Source: Armatimonadota bacterium (GTDB lineage: Bacteria > Armatimonadota > Hebobacteria > GCA-020354555 > CP070648). From it: a stretch of DNA of 39,737 nucleotides. Below are positions 19,909 through 30,753 of the stretch, piece by piece; the stretch's first letter is position 1, and each line of letters begins with the position of its first letter. The stretch is taken from contig DATLAK010000038.1 in assembly GCA_035527535.1 (NCBI GenBank), positions 1 to 39,737 on the forward strand, in the 5' to 3' direction. The position numbers were made by a program, and so were the translations under genes. The notes beneath the pieces were generated by a model. The model ran no database searches, had not been told where the DNA came from, and worked only from the letters and a program-made list of their open reading frames with translations.

Positions 19909-19929
19909 GGGCAAGGCATGCCTTGCCCT
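19905..19929. repeat. Dispersed 25-bp palindromic repeat, copy 2
   Basis: This is identical over 25 bases to 29-53; the palindromic core is 19909-19928. The TAG stop of the esterase (19906-19908) lies within the shared 25 bases, so the repeat may have supplied the stop. It sits between convergent esterase and yvcK genes and could serve as a bidirectional terminator hairpin. Confidence 0.82.
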
Positions 19930-19959
19930 TACTGTCGAGGGGGCAAGCCCTGAGCGGCG

Positions 19960-22617: not shown

Positions 22618-23154
22618 TTAGCATTCTCCCGGCGCGGCCGCGGCCCCTTCCAGCGCCAGCAGCCCGCGCTTGAGGTCGAGTCCGCCGCCGAAGCCCACCA
22701 GCCGGCCGTCGCCGCCGATCACGCGGTGGCAGGGAACGATGGGGGCCAGCGGGTTGCGCGCCATGACCTGCCCCACCGCGCGCGCGGCCCGCGCGTTCCC
22801 CGCCCGCCGGGCGACCTCGCCGTAGGTGCGGGTCTCGCCGTAGGGTATGCCTGCCACGGTGAGTAGGACGCGGCAGGTGAAATCGGGCAGCCCTGCCAGG
22901 TCGAGGGGAAGGCCGAAGTCTACCCGCTCACCGGCGAAGAAGCGGCGCAGGTCGCGCAGCGCACGGTGGAGCACTCCGGACACAGCCGAGACTTGCCCGC
23001 CGGTGGTTAGGCGAGGCGGCTGTGCCACATGGATTGCCCCTATTTGCGCCAGGGCCTGTGCAACCGTGGCGCAAGGCAACGTGCAGGCCGCGATGCCGCG
23101 CTGGGTCGCGCGTACGCCGACCCAACCTCGCTCCACATGCGCCAGCGCAATCAT
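22618..23154 (-). CDS. ogt: Methylated-DNA-protein cysteine methyltransferase
   Basis: A 178-residue O6-alkylguanine-DNA alkyltransferase, which removes methyl groups from O6-methylguanine by irreversible transfer to its own cysteine. The active site is PCHRVIG with C142. GIPYGETRTYGEVARRAG (helix-turn-helix part), NPLAPIVPCHRVIGGDG and LVGFGGGLDLKRGLLALEG are all family hallmarks. The start overlaps uvrC by 4 nt (ATGA, 23151-23154), a DNA-repair pairing. Residues 42-58 of the N-terminal domain (HVAQPP to VSAVS) are encoded by a split copy of the 26-bp palindromic repeat seen near uvrA, with 24 extra bases in the middle. The catalytic domain itself is intact. Confidence 0.93.
   Translation of the reverse strand: MIALAHVERGWVGVRATQRGIAACTLPCATVAQALAQIGAIHVAQPPRLTTGGQVSAVSGVLHRALRDLRRFFAGERVDFGLPLDLAGLPDFTCRVLLTVAGIPYGETRTYGEVARRAGNARAARAVGQVMARNPLAPIVPCHRVIGGDGRLVGFGGGLDLKRGLLALEGAAAAPGEC
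22981..23030. repeat. 26-bp palindromic repeat copy split by 24 nt, inside ogt
   Basis: Positions 22981-22990 match the first ten bases, and 23015-23030 the last sixteen, of the 26-bp repeat at 25755-25780. The 24 bases between them (22991-23014) equal eight codons, so the reading frame of ogt is kept. This could be an insertion into a repeat, or the longer form could be ancestral and the 26-mer a deletion product. Confidence 0.75.
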
Positions 23155-25031
23155 GCCTTCTTTTCCAGGTGCGCCCTTAGCGCCTGCGCCACCTTGCGCC
23201 CGACCCCGGGCACCGCCGCCAGTTCTTCAACCCCCGCGGCGCGCATCCTCGCCAGCCCGCCGAAGCGGCTGAGCAGCCGCCGTTTCAAGGTCGGCCCTAC
23301 CCCCCGCACCTGGTCGAGGACGCTCTCGCGCGCCTGGCGCGCGCGCAGGGTGTGGTGATAGGCCTGGGCGAAGCGGTGGGCCTCGTCGCGCAGGCGCTGG
23401 AGCAGGTGCAGCGCGGGGGAATGGCCGGGCAGGATGAGCGGCGACGAGCGCCCCTCCAGATAGACCCAGTCCCGTTCCTTGGCGAGCGCGGCGATGGGAA
23501 GCGACAGCCCCAGGTCGTCGCGCGCGGTAATGGCTACGCCGAGCTGTCCCTTGCCGCCGTCCACCACCATCAGGTCGGGCAGGCGCGCGAACTTCTCCCG
23601 CGCCGCCGCCGCCCGCAGGCGGCGCGCCAGCACCTCGCGCATCATCGCGTAGTCGTCGGGGGCGCCGGTCTCGCCGCGGACGCGGAAATGCCGGTAGTCC
23701 GCCCTCTTCACCCGCCCCTGCTCGAACACCACCATCGAGCCCACCGAGTCCTGCCCGCGGATGGTGGAGATGTCATAGGCCTCGATGCGTTCGGGGGGGA
23801 CGGGGAGGGCGAGCGCGGCCTGCAGGTCGGCCACCGCTGCGCGGCCGCGGCGCTCCTCGGCGCCGGCGCGGGCGTGGTGCTGCTCGAGGTGCAGCCGCGC
23901 GTTATCCGCCGCCAGCTCAAGCAGGTGCTTGCGGTCGCCGCGGCGGGGCCGGCGCACCGTGACCTTGCCCCCGCGGCGCTGCGATAGCCAATCGGCGATC
24001 ACTCCGGCATCGGGGATATTCTCCCCCACCAGCACCTGCGCCGGGACGAACGCCGCCCGCCCGTAGTGCTGCCGCACGAAGTCCCCCAGCACCTCCGCCG
24101 GCGGCGCTCCCGAGGTCCCGTCCACCAGGTAGTGCTCCTGGCCCACCAGCCGGCCCTCGCGCACCGCGAAAACTACGACGCACGCCTCCCCCTCCTGCAG
24201 CCACTGGGCCATGATATCCGCGTCCCCGCCGCCCGCGAGCACCATCTTCTGCCCCTCGGTCGTGCGCTCGACGGCGGCGATCTTGTCGCGCAGGCGCGCC
24301 GCCTCCTCGAAGCGCAGCTCCGCCGCCGCCTGCTCCATGCGCCCGCGCAGGGCGACGAGCACCTTCCCCCCACGCCCGTCCAGCAGCAGCATCGCCCGCT
24401 TGACCATGCGCCGGTATTCCGCCGGGGTGACCTTGCCCACGCAGGGGGCGAGGCACTGGCGCAGGTGGAAGTTGAGGCATGGCCGAGATCGTTTCTCGCC
24501 CGGCTGCCAGTGGCAGCCGCCGCGCTTCTTGACCGACGCCACCAGCGCCTGGCGCACGCCAAAGATGCGCCGCACCAGCCGCACCGTCTCCCACATCGCC
24601 CGGGTGTTGGTGTAGGGGCCGAAGTAACGCGCGCCGTCGCGCTCCATCTTGCGCACCACCACCAGGCGCGGGTACTGCTCCTGCACCGTGACCTTGAGGT
24701 AAGGGTAGCGCTTGTCGTCGCGCAGGCGCACGTTGAAGCGCGGGCGGTGGCGCTGCACCAGGTTGAACTCGAGGATCAACGCCTCGACCTCGGAATCGGT
24801 GACCGTCCAGTCGAGATCGGCGATGCGCTCGACCAGGGCGGACTTGGCCCCCGCCAGCTCGGGGCCGGGCTGGAAGTAGGAGCGCACGCGGCTGCGCAGC
24901 GACTGCGCCTTGCCGACGTAGATGACCTTGCCCACGGCGTCCTTCATCAGATAGACGCCCGGGCGCGCCGGCAGCGACGCGAGCTTCTCGGCCAGGGTGG
25001 GGGTATGGGCCTCGGTGACGATCTCCGTCAT
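23151..25031 (-). CDS. uvrC: Excinuclease ABC subunit C
   Basis: A 626-residue UvrC, the nuclease subunit of nucleotide-excision repair that makes both incisions around a lesion. The GIY-YIG domain (about 21-100) has LPARPGVYLMKD and GKVIYVGKAQSLRSRVRSYF. A Cys-rich stretch with CHW, RPCLNFHLRQCLAPC follows, then the UVR helix pair [15 protein letters not shown]. The RNase H-like half shows AYDISTIRGQDSVGSMV and DLMVVDGGKGQL. Two helix-hairpin-helix motifs end the protein (VRGVGPTLKRRLLSRFGG and LAAVPGVGRKVAQAL). I chose ATG 25031 because it lies about 20 residues ahead of the GIY domain, as is usual; the longer frame up to 25202 crosses a repeat. It is cotranscribed with ogt. Confidence 0.95.
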   Translation of the reverse strand: MTEIVTEAHTPTLAEKLASLPARPGVYLMKDAVGKVIYVGKAQSLRSRVRSYFQPGPELAGAKSALVERIADLDWTVTDSEVEALILEFNLVQRHRPRFNVRLRDDKRYPYLKVTVQEQYPRLVVVRKMERDGARYFGPYTNTRAMWETVRLVRRIFGVRQALVASVKKRGGCHWQPGEKRSRPCLNFHLRQCLAPCVGKVTPAEYRRMVKRAMLLLDGRGGKVLVALRGRMEQAAAELRFEEAARLRDKIAAVERTTEGQKMVLAGGGDADIMAQWLQEGEACVVVFAVREGRLVGQEHYLVDGTSGAPPAEVLGDFVRQHYGRAAFVPAQVLVGENIPDAGVIADWLSQRRGGKVTVRRPRRGDRKHLLELAADNARLHLEQHHARAGAEERRGRAAVADLQAALALPVPPERIEAYDISTIRGQDSVGSMVVFEQGRVKRADYRHFRVRGETGAPDDYAMMREVLARRLRAAAAREKFARLPDLMVVDGGKGQLGVAITARDDLGLSLPIAALAKERDWVYLEGRSSPLILPGHSPALHLLQRLRDEAHRFAQAYHHTLRARQARESVLDQVRGVGPTLKRRLLSRFGGLARMRAAGVEELAAVPGVGRKVAQALRAHLEKKA

Positions 25032-25094: not shown

Positions 25095-25120
25095 ATGTGG
25101 CACAGCCGCCCTCGGCTGTG
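25095..25120 (-). repeat. 26-bp palindromic repeat, copy A (right-inverted partner at 25755)
   Basis: The inner hairpin is CACAGCCG-CCCT-CGGCTGTG (25101-25120). The 26 bases are the exact reverse complement of 25755-25780. It lies between uvrC and the 3' end of the DUF3883 gene. Confidence 0.85.
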
Positions 25121-25134
25121 TCCCTCCGGTACGT

Positions 25135-25566
25135 TCAGCGAGTGGAATCCGTCGGCTGCCTGTCGAGCGCCCTCGCGCAGGTCTCGGGTGCAATGCTCTC
25201 ACAATGTTCGCGGCACCAGCGCATTGGCAGGAACCAGCGAGGCTCCATCTCCGCGTGCTTCAGGACCTCATCACCCATAATGCGAGTCACGGTTGCCGGG
25301 GCGGAGCCGTCGAGGTTTTCGAAAACCCACATCTGCCAGTTTGGATCCTTGCGCGCCGCGTCGAACTCGTTCTTGGTCAGATAGCGGAAGCCGCCGACGC
25401 TCCTCACGGCCCCGCCCGCCCCCTTCACCTCGATGTGCAATTCATCATCCCCCCTCGTCGCTGTCAAGTCATAGCCCGGGCCGCCGGTCGAGACCTGCCA
25501 ACCGTCCGCCTTGAGTAACTCCGTTGCGAGCCGCATCGCGGCGTCCCGAATCTGCGTGGTTCTCAT
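25135..25566 (-). CDS. DUF3883 domain protein, PD-(D/E)XK nuclease-like
   Basis: A 143-residue protein that matches the DUF3883 family (C-terminal domain of plant NO VEIN proteins). The core GGPGYDLTATRGDDELHIEVKG gives a D33-x12-E46-V-K48 pattern like the PD-(D/E)XK nuclease active site, followed by the family's VGGFRYLTKNEFDAARKDP. Other DUF3883 proteins occur alone and as domains of restriction or defence-related proteins. I chose ATG 25566 because GAGGA lies 5-6 nt upstream. The gene is bracketed by perfect inverted copies of a 26-bp repeat (25095-25120 and 25755-25780) and sits between uvrA and uvrC. Whether it cuts DNA is unknown. Confidence 0.82.
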   Translation of the reverse strand: MRTTQIRDAAMRLATELLKADGWQVSTGGPGYDLTATRGDDELHIEVKGAGGAVRSVGGFRYLTKNEFDAARKDPNWQMWVFENLDGSAPATVTRIMGDEVLKHAEMEPRWFLPMRWCREHCESIAPETCARALDRQPTDSTR

Positions 25567-25862
25567 TCTGTTCCTCTTTGCTCGCCATCCCATTCATGCC
25601 CTGCTGTCCGCGGCGCGATGGTTCTCAGTCGGGAGGCGATCTCCTGCCCTGCGAGCGTAACGCCCTGGGGTCGGTCTCCTTATTGCTCACTGGCGTGGCT
25701 CCTCTCCGCGTCGTTTCGGCGCCGGCGCGGAGAGCTGACGCTCCGCTCGTTGATCACAGCCGAGGGCGGCTGTGCCACATCCTCCGGCGTCGGCGATGGC
25801 CTCTTCGCTTTCGCTCAGGATGACATCACTCGTCGCAGCCAGCGTCGAGGGACCCGCCAGGA
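25567..25862. other. Repeat-bearing intergenic region downstream of uvrA
   Basis: No gene is seen. It holds an inverted repeat with nine-base arms (CTCTCCGCG at 25702-25710, CGCGGAGAG at 25726-25734) and the 26-bp repeat at 25755-25780. Open frames across it encode Arg/Ser/Pro-rich nonsense. Either hairpin could terminate uvrA transcription. Confidence 0.6.
25755..25780 (+). repeat. 26-bp palindromic repeat, copy B
   Basis: The hairpin CACAGCCG-AGGG-CGGCTGTG (25755-25774) is followed by CCACAT. The 26 bases are the exact reverse complement of 25095-25120 and match the split copy inside ogt. It lies upstream of the DUF3883 gene. Confidence 0.85.
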
Positions 25863-28766
25863 TCAGCAAGCGGGCTGTGCCACACGGGACCGCGCGCGGC
25901 GCGGCTTGGGCTTCTTGGCGCCTTCGTCGTTGCCCCCCAACAGCGCGCGTAGGAACTGCCCGGTGTAGGAGTGCCCAACCTTTGCCACCTCCTCCGGCGT
26001 ACCGCGGGCGACGATCTCGCCGCCGGCGTCCCCGCCCTCAGGACCGAGGTCTATGATGTAGTCGGCGCACTTGATGACATCGAGGTTGTGCTCGATGACG
26101 ATGACCGTATTGCCGGCGTCCACCAGGCGGTTGAGCACCTCCAGCAGCTTCTCGATGTCGGCGAAATGAAGCCCGGTGGTGGGCTCGTCGAGGAGATAGA
26201 GGGTTCTGCCGGTGGCGCGGCGCGACAGTTCCGCCGCCAGCTTGACGCGCTGCGCCTCGCCGCCGGAGAGCGTGGTTGCGGGCTGGCCGAGGCGGATGTA
26301 GTCGAGGCCGACATCGTGGATGGTTTCCAGCTTGCGATGAATCGCCGGGATATTGCGGAAGAACTCGAGCGCCTCGGCGACGGTCATCTCCAGCACCTCG
26401 GCGATGCTGCGGCCCTTGTAGCGCACCTGCAGCGTCTCGCGGTTGTAGCGAGAGCCGCCGCACTCCTCGCACGGGACATAGACGTCGGGCAGGAAGACCA
26501 TCTCGATCTTGAGGATGCCGTCGCCGTGGCAGGCCTCGCAGCGCCCGCCCTTGACATTGAAGCTGAAGCGGCCGGGGCGGTACCCGCGCGCGCGCGCCTC
26601 CGGGGTCTGGGCGAAGAGCTCGCGGATGGCGGTGAAGGTGCCGATGTAGGTCGCGGGATTGCTGCGCGGAGAGCGGCCGATGGGCGACTGGTCTATGTCA
26701 ATCACCTTGTCCAACACGCGCATGTTCTCGATGCGGTCGTGCTTGCCCCACGAGGTGCGCGCCCCCTGCAGCGCGTGCGCCAGCCGCCGGTAGAGGATGT
26801 CCTCCATGACCGTGCTCTTGCCGGAGCCGCTGACGCCGCTGAGACACACGAACACGCCCAGCGGGATCGGGATGTCCACGCCCTTGAGGTTGTGCTCGCG
26901 GGCGTTGCGGATGACCAGCCAGGAGCTGTCGGCGCCGAGTGGCGCGCGGGGCGCGCGGCGGCGGCTGGGCATGGGGATGCGGCGCTCGCCGCTGAGGTAC
27001 TTGCCGGTGACCGAAGCGCGCTGCTTGACCAGGTCCCGCACCTTGCCGGTGGCGACCACTTCGCCGCCGCGCTCGCCGGCGCCGGGGCCGATGTCAATGA
27101 TGTAGTCGGCGCTGCGAATGGTGGCCTCGTCGTGCTCGACGACGAGGATGGTGTTGCCGAGGTCGCGTAGCGCTTCGAGGGTGGCGAGCAGGCGGCGGTT
27201 GTCGCGCTGGTGGAGGCCGACGCTGGGTTCGTCCAGGATATAGAGCACGCCGGTGAGGCCGGAGCCGATCTGGGTAGCGAGGCGGATGCGCTGCGCCTCG
27301 CCTCCGGCCAGGGTCGCCGCCGTGCGGTCGAGAGTCAGGTAGTCCAGCCCGACGTTGAGCAGGAAATCGAGGCGGGCGCGGATCTCCTTGAGCACCTGGC
27401 GCGCGATGAGCTGCTGACGCTGGTCGAGGGCGAGCTGGGCGAAGAACTCGGCGGCGGCGCGCACCGACAGCACGGCGACGTCGGCGATGTTGCTGCCATT
27501 GATGCGCACCGCGAGGCTCTCCGGCTTGAGGCGGGCGCCGCCGCAGGCGGGGCACGGCTGGATGCTCATGTAGTTCTCCAGCTCGCTGCGGCGGTAGTCG
27601 GAATCGGTTTGCTCGTAGTCCTGCATCAGGTGGTAGAGCAGGCCCCGGAACGCCGTATCGTACACGCGCGGGCGACCGCCGCGGCCGCGGAAACGCACGC
27701 GCACGCGCTCGCCGGTGCCCTCCAGCAGCTTGTCGAGCTTGGCCTTGGAGATGCGGCTCAGCGGTGTCTGCGGGTCAATGCCGTACGCCTGCGCGGCCGC
27801 CCGCAGCAGCGAACTGAAATAGCGCGAGACGTCGCTCGCCCAAGGCAGCACCGCTCCCTCAGCCAGGCTCAGGGAGCGGTCGGGGATGATCAGGTCCTGG
27901 TCGAACTCGCGGCGCGTCCCCAGGCCGGTGCAGGCGGGGCAAGCGCCGTAGGGGCTATTGAAGCTGAACATGCGCGGCTCCAGCTCGGGGAAGCTGCGGT
28001 CGCAGCGCAGGCACGCCCCGTGCTCGCTGAAGTCAATCTGCTCGCCGTCAACCACTTGCACCGCGGCGACGCCGCCGCCGATCTTGAGCGCGGTCGCCAT
28101 CGAGTCGGTCAGGCGCTGGCGCAAGCCGGGGCGCACCACCAGCCGGTCCACCACCACCTCGATCGTGTGCTGCTTGTAGCGCGCGAGCTTGATGTCCTCC
28201 GACAGCTCGCGCACTTCGCCGTCCACCCGCACGCGCACGAAGCCCTGCTTGGCGATGTCGTCGAGCACCGCGCGGTACTCGCCCTTGCGCCCGCGCACCA
28301 CCGGCCCCAGCAGCAGGAGGCGCGTGCCCTCGGGCAGCGTCTCCACCGCGTCCACGATCTGCGCCAGCGACTGGCGGGCGATCTTCTGCCCGCACTGCGG
28401 GCAGTGGGGGGTGCCGATGCGCGCGAACAGCAGGCGCAGGTGGTCGTAGATCTCGGTCACCGTTCCCACCGTCGAGCGTGGGTTGTGGGTCGCCGATTTC
28501 TGGTCAATCGAAACCGCCGGCGACAGCCCGTCAATGGTATCCACGTCGGGCTTGTCCATCTGTCCCAGGAACTGGCGGGCGTAGGAGGACAGGCTCTCGA
28601 CGTAGCGGCGCTGCCCCTCGGCGTAGATGGTATCGAACGCGAGCGAGGATTTCCCCGAGCCCGACAAGCCGGTGATGACCACCAGCTTATGGCGGGGGAT
28701 CTCGACGGTGATGTTCTTCAGGTTATGCTGCCGCGCCCCGCGGACGATGATCTTGTCGAGCGACAT
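25863..28766 (-). CDS. uvrA: Excinuclease ABC subunit A
   Basis: A 967-residue UvrA, the damage-sensing ABC-type ATPase of nucleotide-excision repair, which loads UvrB at lesions. There are two nucleotide-binding halves: Walker A1 GLSGSGKS (33-40) and a second GVSGSGKS, with signatures [12 protein letters not shown] and [12 protein letters not shown], and Walker [13 protein letters not shown] and [12 protein letters not shown]. Zinc-binding clusters include [13 protein letters not shown] and the CEACHGDG to CEECGG module. The tail after [10 protein letters not shown] is basic and ends RVAQPAC, where the last codons match half of the palindromic repeat found nearby. ATG 28766 starts the family's usual [16 protein letters not shown]. 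Confidence 0.97.
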
Positions 28767-28787: not shown

Positions 28788-29579
28788 CTACGCACATGCT
28801 AGCGCGTCCACAAGTGGCTTGAATTCGCTGCAGGCCCTGTACCTTTCGATATCAAACGTAGTCGGGCACCGGGCGCGCATTTCCACCCCATGAGGTAAGA
28901 AGGACTCGAACAGGGTCTGGGGCCTTCTGAGCTCAAGTATCTGCTGGGCCTCCGTGGGATACATATGACGGCCCCTAAGCCGCTTGGCACCGCCGGCCAT
29001 TGGGTAGTCGGTGCCGTAACAGACGAACCGATCGGGCAGAATCATGCCGAAGTTCGGGCGTTGGTGAAGCTCAACGCTGGCGACGGCCTGTTGCAACCAT
29101 TGCGCTATCTTCGCCGACCTGTTTGCGGTCGTGACCGCAAAGACAACGCCCAGTGGGCGATTGTCGCCAAAGCCGGTCTTGTCCCTGTCCTCCGCGTATT
29201 CACCTTGGTAGGCTTCCATAGACCGAACGCGCCTTATCTTCCCGACGTCTTCTCTCATGCCCTTTTCAGTGAGGGTCGTCTTGACCTCGATAACTGCCAA
29301 GACGCCCTCGATGGGGAAAAAGCCAACCATCGGGAACGGACCGGATTTCCGTGGGTCATAGATTACCACATCGCATTCGCGGCTGAACTTTGCGGCGCCG
29401 AAGGACGTTATTGCGCGACCTGAGGATATCTCGTACTGCTCGGGGACGAGACCGCGCAAGTAGTGACGCACGGCCGCCTCGATAGCCGACCCCTTGAGGT
29501 TACTACCAACGTCTTGGGGCGGCGTTATGTCACGGAGCGCCTGACAAAGCTGTGTGAGTTCGTTGAACTCAATAGCCAT
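28788..29579 (-). CDS. DUF6602 protein, PD-(D/E)XK-like
   Basis: A 263-residue protein resembling the DUF6602 family. A PD-(D/E)XK-like active site can be read as E34 (in [11 protein letters not shown]), D70 (ECDVVIYD) and E98-V-K100 (AVIEVKTTL). Between them is the family-like [14 protein letters not shown] block. The rest has no feature I recognise. AGGAG lies 6 nt before ATG 29579. It follows the protease-TPR gene by 34 nt in the same direction, so the two form a pair. The DNA is lower in GC than uvrA or uvrB (52-58% in lines I counted by hand, against 77% in one uvrA line), which suggests transfer. Nuclease activity and a defence role are inference. Confidence 0.72.
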
Positions 29580-29613
29580 TCTTGCTCCTGTTACCGGACC
29601 CCTCGGTGCGCAG

Positions 29614-30753
29614 TCACGTCCGATCCAGCAATTGGAACAACTGGCCCGCGAGGTCGGGGCTGAGGCCCTTGAGTATTCTGAGTTCGTCGTGTGCCGCTCT
29701 GCGGCAATCTACTTTCGTCGCGGGGTTGTTCCAGTAGTCCATCAGTCCCAGGTAGCTCAGCGCCAGGTGGAAGTGGGCCTCAGCGAAGTCCGGCTTGAGA
29801 CGAATGGCTTCCTTGAAGGCGTCTACGGCTTTCTCACGTGCGCGCAGGCGCGCGTAGACCACGCCCAGCCAGAAGTGTGCATCAGCAAAGCCCGGCCCTA
29901 GGCGAATAGCTTGCTTGAAGGCGCGCACCGCGTCGTGCCAGAGGCCCAGAGAATGAAGACAACAGCCGGCCTGTAACCAAGCGTCAAGATATTCGGGGCG
30001 CTCTTCCAGGGCTCTGCGAAAGAGCGCCAGCGCCTGCTCGAGCTGGCCCCGTGCTCGGGGTGCGTTGTAGTTTTCCGGCAACGCCGCCAGGCCCTGCTGG
30101 TACAGCGATTGGGCGCTTCCGGCGAGCGATGGAGGCGCGACTCTTGCGGGCGGCTTACGGGCTGCTTTCGTCAGTGGTGCTACGCGACCGATGTCCTTCA
30201 GTCTCGGCTTCACGTCGTTGATGGGAACGGCGAAGTTGAGGTTTTGCCCCTCCGTCATGTGAAAGGTGGCAACGCCAATGACCTCTCCCCGCAGATTCAT
30301 CACAGGCCCGCCGCTGCTTCCAGGTGAGATCGGAGCCGTGATCTGCAAGCGCCGGCCGCCTTCAGGAGCCTCACGAACCGCGCTAACCATACCCTCCGAG
30401 GCCGTCTGCTCAAGGCCAAGAGGCGCCCCAAGGGTCAGCACGCCGTCTCCCTGCCGAACCTGGTCCGAGTCGCCCAGTGGCGCGGTTGGCAGATCCTTGC
30501 CCTCCACCTTGAGCACCGCGAAATCCGCCTCGGTGTCCCGGGCCAGAAGTCCCTCCACCTCGAAATACGCGCCAATTGGGAGCGTCACCCGCGCAGCCGC
30601 GGCTCCGGCGATAACGTGGCACGCCGTGACCACCATCCCGTCGGGGGCGACGATCACGCCGCTTCCCTGGGTTGTCTGCTCGCCTTTCTCGTTGAAGCAG
30701 ACCACCGTTACCACGGCCGGGCTTACTTGCGACAGCGCATCCCTTGTGTGCAT
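29614..30753 (-). CDS. Trypsin-like (S1C) serine protease with TPR repeats
   Basis: A 379-residue protein with an N-terminal chymotrypsin-fold protease and C-terminal TPR repeats. The catalytic triad is visible as H46 (VVTACHVIAG), D77 (DTEADFAVLKV) and S147 (SPGSSGGPV), with the DegP/HtrA-like GVATF and NFAVP segments after it. TPR-like helices run from about 217 to 345 (ALALFRRALEERPEYLDAWL, AVRAFKQAIRLGPGFADAHF and a third FKEAIRLKPDFAEAHF). There is no signal peptide or PDZ domain, so unlike DegP it is probably cytoplasmic. GGAGG lies 5 nt before ATG 30753. It leads the two-gene unit with the DUF6602 gene. It could be a stress protease or a conflict-system effector. Confidence 0.85.
   Translation of the reverse strand: MHTRDALSQVSPAVVTVVCFNEKGEQTTQGSGVIVAPDGMVVTACHVIAGAAAARVTLPIGAYFEVEGLLARDTEADFAVLKVEGKDLPTAPLGDSDQVRQGDGVLTLGAPLGLEQTASEGMVSAVREAPEGGRRLQITAPISPGSSGGPVMNLRGEVIGVATFHMTEGQNLNFAVPINDVKPRLKDIGRVAPLTKAARKPPARVAPPSLAGSAQSLYQQGLAALPENYNAPRARGQLEQALALFRRALEERPEYLDAWLQAGCCLHSLGLWHDAVRAFKQAIRLGPGFADAHFWLGVVYARLRAREKAVDAFKEAIRLKPDFAEAHFHLALSYLGLMDYWNNPATKVDCRRAAHDELRILKGLSPDLAGQLFQLLDRT

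Follow-up and report, generated by a model that had tools for sequence, protein, structure and literature searches.

REP insertions around an accessory NOV_C gene in the uvr operon of an Armatimonadota bacterium suggest a bracket that does not delimit a mobilized unit

The uvr operon of this Armatimonadota genome harbors a gene that sits between two oppositely oriented hairpins. Within the window, meaning the whole 39,737-nucleotide stretch analyzed here, uvrA (25863–28766) and uvrC (23151–25031, start ATG at 25031) flank a gene of the NOV_C family (PF13020, formerly DUF3883; 25135–25566, E = 2.4e-6), and all three lie on the minus strand, uvrA upstream and uvrC downstream of NOV_C. NOV_C encodes 143 amino acids from the ATG at 25566, or 152 from an alternative upstream ATG at 25593. 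A sequence-only reading had described perfect 26-nt inverted repeats at 25095–25120 and 25755–25780, each a hairpin in itself, with this gene alone between them. Our analyses bear this out: the arms are 100% complementary and 634 nt apart, they fold as DNA at −11 and −10 kcal/mol (z of −5.3 and −3.4), and NOV_C is the sole gene inside. The conserved element is 25 nt long (TGTGG...), the 26th base being an A found ahead of 21 of the 31 genome copies. The left copy (25096–25120, plus strand, TGTGGCACAGCCGCCCTCGGCTGTG) consists of a GTGG head, an 8-bp stem, and a 4-nt loop and lies 14 nt past the NOV_C stop codon, while the right copy (25755–25779, minus strand) is the same sequence inverted. Both heads point outward, and the bracket spans 684 bp from edge to edge (25096–25779). 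Searching the window with the 20-mer hairpin at up to three mismatches recovers only these two sites (chance mean 0.05). Two half copies absent from the sequence-only reading lie outside the bracket, one of 12 nt (TGTGGCACAGCC; 25873–25884, minus strand) in the 3′ end of uvrA, where it supplies codons of a changed C-terminus (VAQPAC), and one of 13 nt in ogt (23017–23029). Inside the bracket and upstream of NOV_C, a GC-rich inverted repeat distinct from these elements occupies 25702–25734, with no strand assigned. Scans of the bracket returned no Rfam match and no promoter-like or terminator-like site. A further palindrome with a GTAG head (GTAGGGGCAAGGCATGCCTTGCCC) occurs at 24–52 and 19909–19937 of the window and on another stretch (L011, near 1470), and is probably a separate family.

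NOV_C is a recent accession: it is absent from nearly all genomes of the phylum and its GC3 (0.80) falls below that of uvrA, uvrB, and uvrC (0.92–0.94). No NOV_C protein was found in 288 of the 291 phylum genomes, and two others gave weak matches. We found no homologues in viral contigs, no match among solved structures, and only weak DUF3883 matches in plasmids (40–43% identity across about 60% of the query). The residues YDLTATRGDDELHIEVKG would fit a PD-(D/E)XK-type nuclease, making NOV_C a putative nuclease, and a domain search of the protein found no further known domain. Other genes have joined the same operon: the gap between uvrB and uvrA (28788–30753) contains a DUF6602 gene (28788–29579, minus strand; PD-(D/E)XK/NucC-like by PADLOC models, GC3 0.69) and a trypsin-TPR gene, both without the repeat that brackets NOV_C and both missing from this gap in the nearest relative (G001). 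Accessory gene gain in the uvr operon therefore needs no such repeats. NOV_C and the DUF6602 product are thus two possible nucleases in one uvr operon.

Comparison with relatives dates both the gene and the repeats. The nearest relative, a closed genome of the same family, has uvrB, uvrA, and uvrC consecutively; uvrA abuts uvrC there across a gap of only 37–48 bp that holds neither NOV_C nor the repeat, and in a further genome (G018) this gap is 36 bp. A junction lacking gene and repeats, which the sequence-only reading had proposed to look for, thus exists, and because the relative's roughly 40-bp junction has neither, both are recent newcomers here. The arrangement which that reading had named as counterevidence, a DUF3883 gene at this site in relatives without the repeats, was not seen, as no relative carries the gene at this position. 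In the window's junction, 145 bp fall outside the bracket; these lack a clean alignment to the relative's junction, and the flanks there have diverged too far for the ends to be placed. A third genome (G005, L226) carries at its uvrA-uvrC junction a different GTGG-type repeat (AGTGGCGCAGGCTCCCAGCCTGTGCC) and an apparent small toxin-antitoxin pair, an assignment read from the translation, and the junction may accordingly be a spot of repeated insertion.

The repeat belongs to a dispersed family with the form of REP elements, whose signature is a GTAG-like head beside a conserved palindrome. The 3.24-Mb genome (192 contigs) holds 26 copies of its exact core, compared with 0 for the reversed control, and allowing up to three mismatches raises the number of places to 79 (control 0), among them overlapping reverse readings of one hairpin. 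Alignment of 31 copies gives the consensus (A)TGTGGCACAGCCGCCC[CT]CGGCTGTG between unrelated flanks, and GTGG adjoins the stem in nearly all copies, with some GTAG and GGAG variants. Because 16 of the 31 share the same sequence including the CCCT loop, which is the family consensus, the identity of the two bracket arms is unremarkable. Stem pairing is conserved family-wide: 97% of stem positions are paired (30–48% in slid controls), and 13 cells show compensating changes on both sides where 1.8 are expected, covering 4 of 8 pairs (0 of 500 shuffles). The sequence itself had no match in the literature searched. Given the hairpin palindrome, the GTGG head, dispersed copies with differing flanks, and a RAYT flanked by the same repeat elsewhere (below), we identify it as a REP element.

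Exact copies are present in only 3 of the 291 genomes of the phylum (22 copies here and one each in G001 and G247), and a scan of species genomes recovered the REP in at least 120 stretches from Planctomycetota, Hydrogenedentota, Verrucomicrobia, and Acidobacteria. Practically the same 25-mer is thus found across at least five phyla. Eight of these foreign genomes carry 22–166 copies each, often paired in inverted orientation with heads outward (in Planctomycetales ZRK34 the starts are 41 nt apart), and the usual spacer of inverted dimers in foreign loci is 12–51 nt. Longer inverted pairs in one genome (G293; about 96–133 nt between copies) share only short ends, and their variable interiors rule out a conserved MITE.

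RAYT genes associated with exactly this REP occur in the foreign genomes. The 120 foreign 8-kb stretches listed held no RAYT, so Y1 genes were taken separately from the eight genomes. Two of these genes lie between copies of the bracket's REP with heads outward, one in ZRK34 (L262; NCBIfam REP_Tyr_transpos at 99 bits, cut-off 80) and one in Planctomycetaceae PLA4 (L269), forming units of about 510 and 660 bp, respectively. Since a RAYT is flanked by the same REP in both, we regard the repeat as a RAYT element. In PLA4 the REP-RAYT-REP block (L269 100–1500; G292 C107:3200–5500) lies in-frame in gcvP, within one 760-aa open frame, and the alignment of glycine dehydrogenase (PDB 4lgl) ends at 762 and resumes at 767, placing the interruption exactly between the REPs; a REP-bounded block of such size can therefore land as one piece. 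Elsewhere, REPs stand on one side of a Y1 gene (L277) or beside a Y1 fragment (L293). A Y1 gene in another genome (G298, L219) was set aside, as it lies between a variant repeat (GTGGCACAGGCT...AGCCTGTG) and not the bracket's REP. Three Y1 genes are present in the genome studied here, and their repeats differ from one another and from the bracket's REP: one lies amid dense arrays of GGGCGCGGGGTTCTCCTAACCCCGCGGGG (a RAYT gene, L027 1000–2095, contig C61), one with GTAGGGGCCGATCTCCTGATCGGCCC, and one between long, near-perfect 26-bp terminal inverted repeats (AATTCCGGGGACAGTCGACTTAATTA; L028 1375–2115, contig C175) that fit the GGGGWSAS motif of "TIRtrons" (PMC3733652). Querying the assembly with the ZRK34 RAYT returned these three genes plus weak matches and no RAYT with the bracket's REP. 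The sequence-only reading, which saw no transposase and concluded that movement would have to occur in trans, is in keeping with this result, as no Y1 gene in the assembly carries the bracket repeats. A GTGG head in place of GTAG has been reported for one family, GTAG-20 of Opitutus terrae (PMC3733652). Cutting and joining of single-stranded DNA has been shown for other TnpA-REP proteins, and one of them still cleaves in vitro when its tetranucleotide is changed to GTGG (PMC8266576). That the repeats are mobile is well supported.

REPs of this family also lie within core genes, including polA (C51:9315, L257/L045), trpA (C9:2100, L001), and tatD (C67:18590–18648, L048), where they are in-frame and identifiable as inserts by alignment to solved structures. 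Others are found in a csaB-like gene (C44:5744), at the end of cbiM (C92:40970), and probably inside tgt (C27:2586). The element is free of stop codons in all six frames and encodes peptides such as VAQPPPAA or TAGGGCAT. A candidate case in pyrC was dropped, since the alignment differs there by 2 residues only. REPs inside polA, trpA, and tatD cannot bracket cargo there. Intragenic REPs in repair genes have been reported before (PMC3733652).

Brackets elsewhere in the genome enclose core as well as accessory genes. On contig C92, inverted, variant-form copies, one at the cbiM end and one at the cbiQ start, lie 413 bp apart with only cbiN inside (gene names read from translation). On C175, REPs occupy three junctions (argC/argJ, argB/argD, and argD/argG), the last two forming a heads-out pair that encloses argD together with a small membrane protein. 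Beside the end of contig C139, a 2.5-kb heads-out bracket contains one TIR-NB-ARC-TPR gene (L258 1513–4052), which does look accessory. Among the 120 foreign stretches listed, which hold 176 copies, 24 heads-out pairs occur and none encloses a gene; 23 of the 24 spacers are shorter than 100 nt and the remaining one is 150 nt. Bracketing of genes is thus not the rule in this genome or among the foreign stretches listed, and NOV_C cargo did not recur in the phylum, in viral contigs, or, weak DUF3883 matches aside, in plasmids. The proposal that a cargo unit of about 690 bp moved between the repeats is thus unsupported, and brackets also surround the core operon genes cbiN and argD. The sequence-only reading had set against cargo a 26-mer dispersed with no bias to flank genes, and this is largely what we observe: the repeat is multicopy and mostly single. 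With 31 copies placed at random, about 0.05 heads-out pairs within 660 bp are expected, and the chance of at least one is 4–5%; copies do cluster generally, with 5 neighboring REP pairs within 2.6 kb observed and 0.74–0.93 expected (P about 0.001). Such spacing suggests some local process, whether clustering, local hopping, or a unit.

We consider it probable, at roughly 75%, that independent REPs came to lie around an accessory gene in the uvr operon and that the bracket does not mark the limits of a mobilized segment. The NOV_C gene would have inserted between uvrA and uvrC in a uvrBAC operon with other foreign gains, presumably arriving without REPs. A RAYT (Y1/HUH family) would recognize the GTGG-headed hairpin as single-stranded DNA, cut it, and join it elsewhere, and REPs would have settled later, singly or successively, in the short noncoding gaps on either side of NOV_C, with a third, broken copy landing inside the 3′ end of uvrA. 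Its apparent structure as a bracket would then be a by-product of the preference of REPs for gene junctions combined with local clustering.

One alternative is that REP-NOV_C-REP forms a unit resembling a REPtron, the 684-bp stretch, gene included, having been carried into the junction by a RAYT acting in trans. The heads-out geometry and the 634-nt interior do approach the two foreign RAYT units in form and size, the PLA4 block demonstrably sits in gcvP, the junction of the nearest relative is empty, NOV_C is foreign in codon use and nearly absent from the phylum, and the TIR-NB-ARC-TPR gene is bracketed alike. Yet cbiN and argD lie in similar brackets, none of the 24 inverted pairs among the 120 foreign stretches listed contains a gene, and the assembly has no matching RAYT; moreover, the 145 bp beyond the bracket have no clean counterpart in the relative, and a half REP lies outside, in uvrA. 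We therefore regard such a unit as unlikely, and quite unlikely, too, the general proposition that RAYTs in trans mobilize nontransposase genes between outward REPs as minimal cargo transposons, with NOV_C and the TIR-NB-ARC-TPR gene as instances.

The repeats could instead mark a landing site, NOV_C having arrived by recombination of a REP-ended donor fragment with REPs that already stood in the junction. The abundance of REPs in this genome, the third, broken copy in the same junction, and the G005 junction with its GTGG-type REP and toxin-antitoxin-like pair are all consistent with such a route, but a 25-bp repeat offers little length for homologous recombination, the nearest relative's junction has no REP, and no donor was seen, and we judge this reading improbable. 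It is very unlikely that the REPs are kept as RNA hairpins that would shield or throttle NOV_C in the uvr transcript: both do lie in the transcribed strand between codirectional genes, the left one directly behind NOV_C, their stem is maintained by compensating changes, and published REPs lie mainly just 3′ of coding regions (PMC3733652), but RAYT recognition alone accounts for the stem conservation, the scans of the bracket were negative, and REPs also occur within coding sequences.

On the preferred reading of independent insertions, the locus is a tidy example of how REPs can make a gene resemble transposon cargo. It also contributes a REP family with a GTGG head, its RAYT identified, that extends over at least five phyla. 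We know of no RAYTs that move genes, and if the cargo reading were true, REP/RAYT systems would gain a gene-moving role. Among known systems, Rickettsia palindromic elements (RPE) are similar in forming in-frame palindromes within genes, as in polA, trpA, and tatD here, but their sequence is unrelated and the NOV_C situation differs. REPINs or BIMEs (PMC3116915) likewise pair two REPs in inverted orientation, whereas the spacer here is 634 nt long, includes a gene, and was found once, compared with about 12–150 nt, so that the bracket falls outside this class. It also falls outside the REPtrons, defined as RAYT genes flanked by their REPs: the heads-out inverted REPs, the single gene inside, and the size are similar (L262, L269), but the enclosed gene is NOV_C and not a RAYT. 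The closest counterparts are the GTAG-type REPs with their RAYTs (Di Nocera et al. 2013, PMC3733652; Nunvar et al. 2010, PMC2817692). Although the head here is mostly GTGG, practically one 25-mer spans at least five phyla, and the assembly combines mostly single copies with the absence of a matching RAYT, the family shares with them a palindrome of 20–40 bp with a GTAG-like end in many copies, inverted dimers, REP-flanked RAYT genes, copies in gene junctions, and some copies in repair or replication genes.
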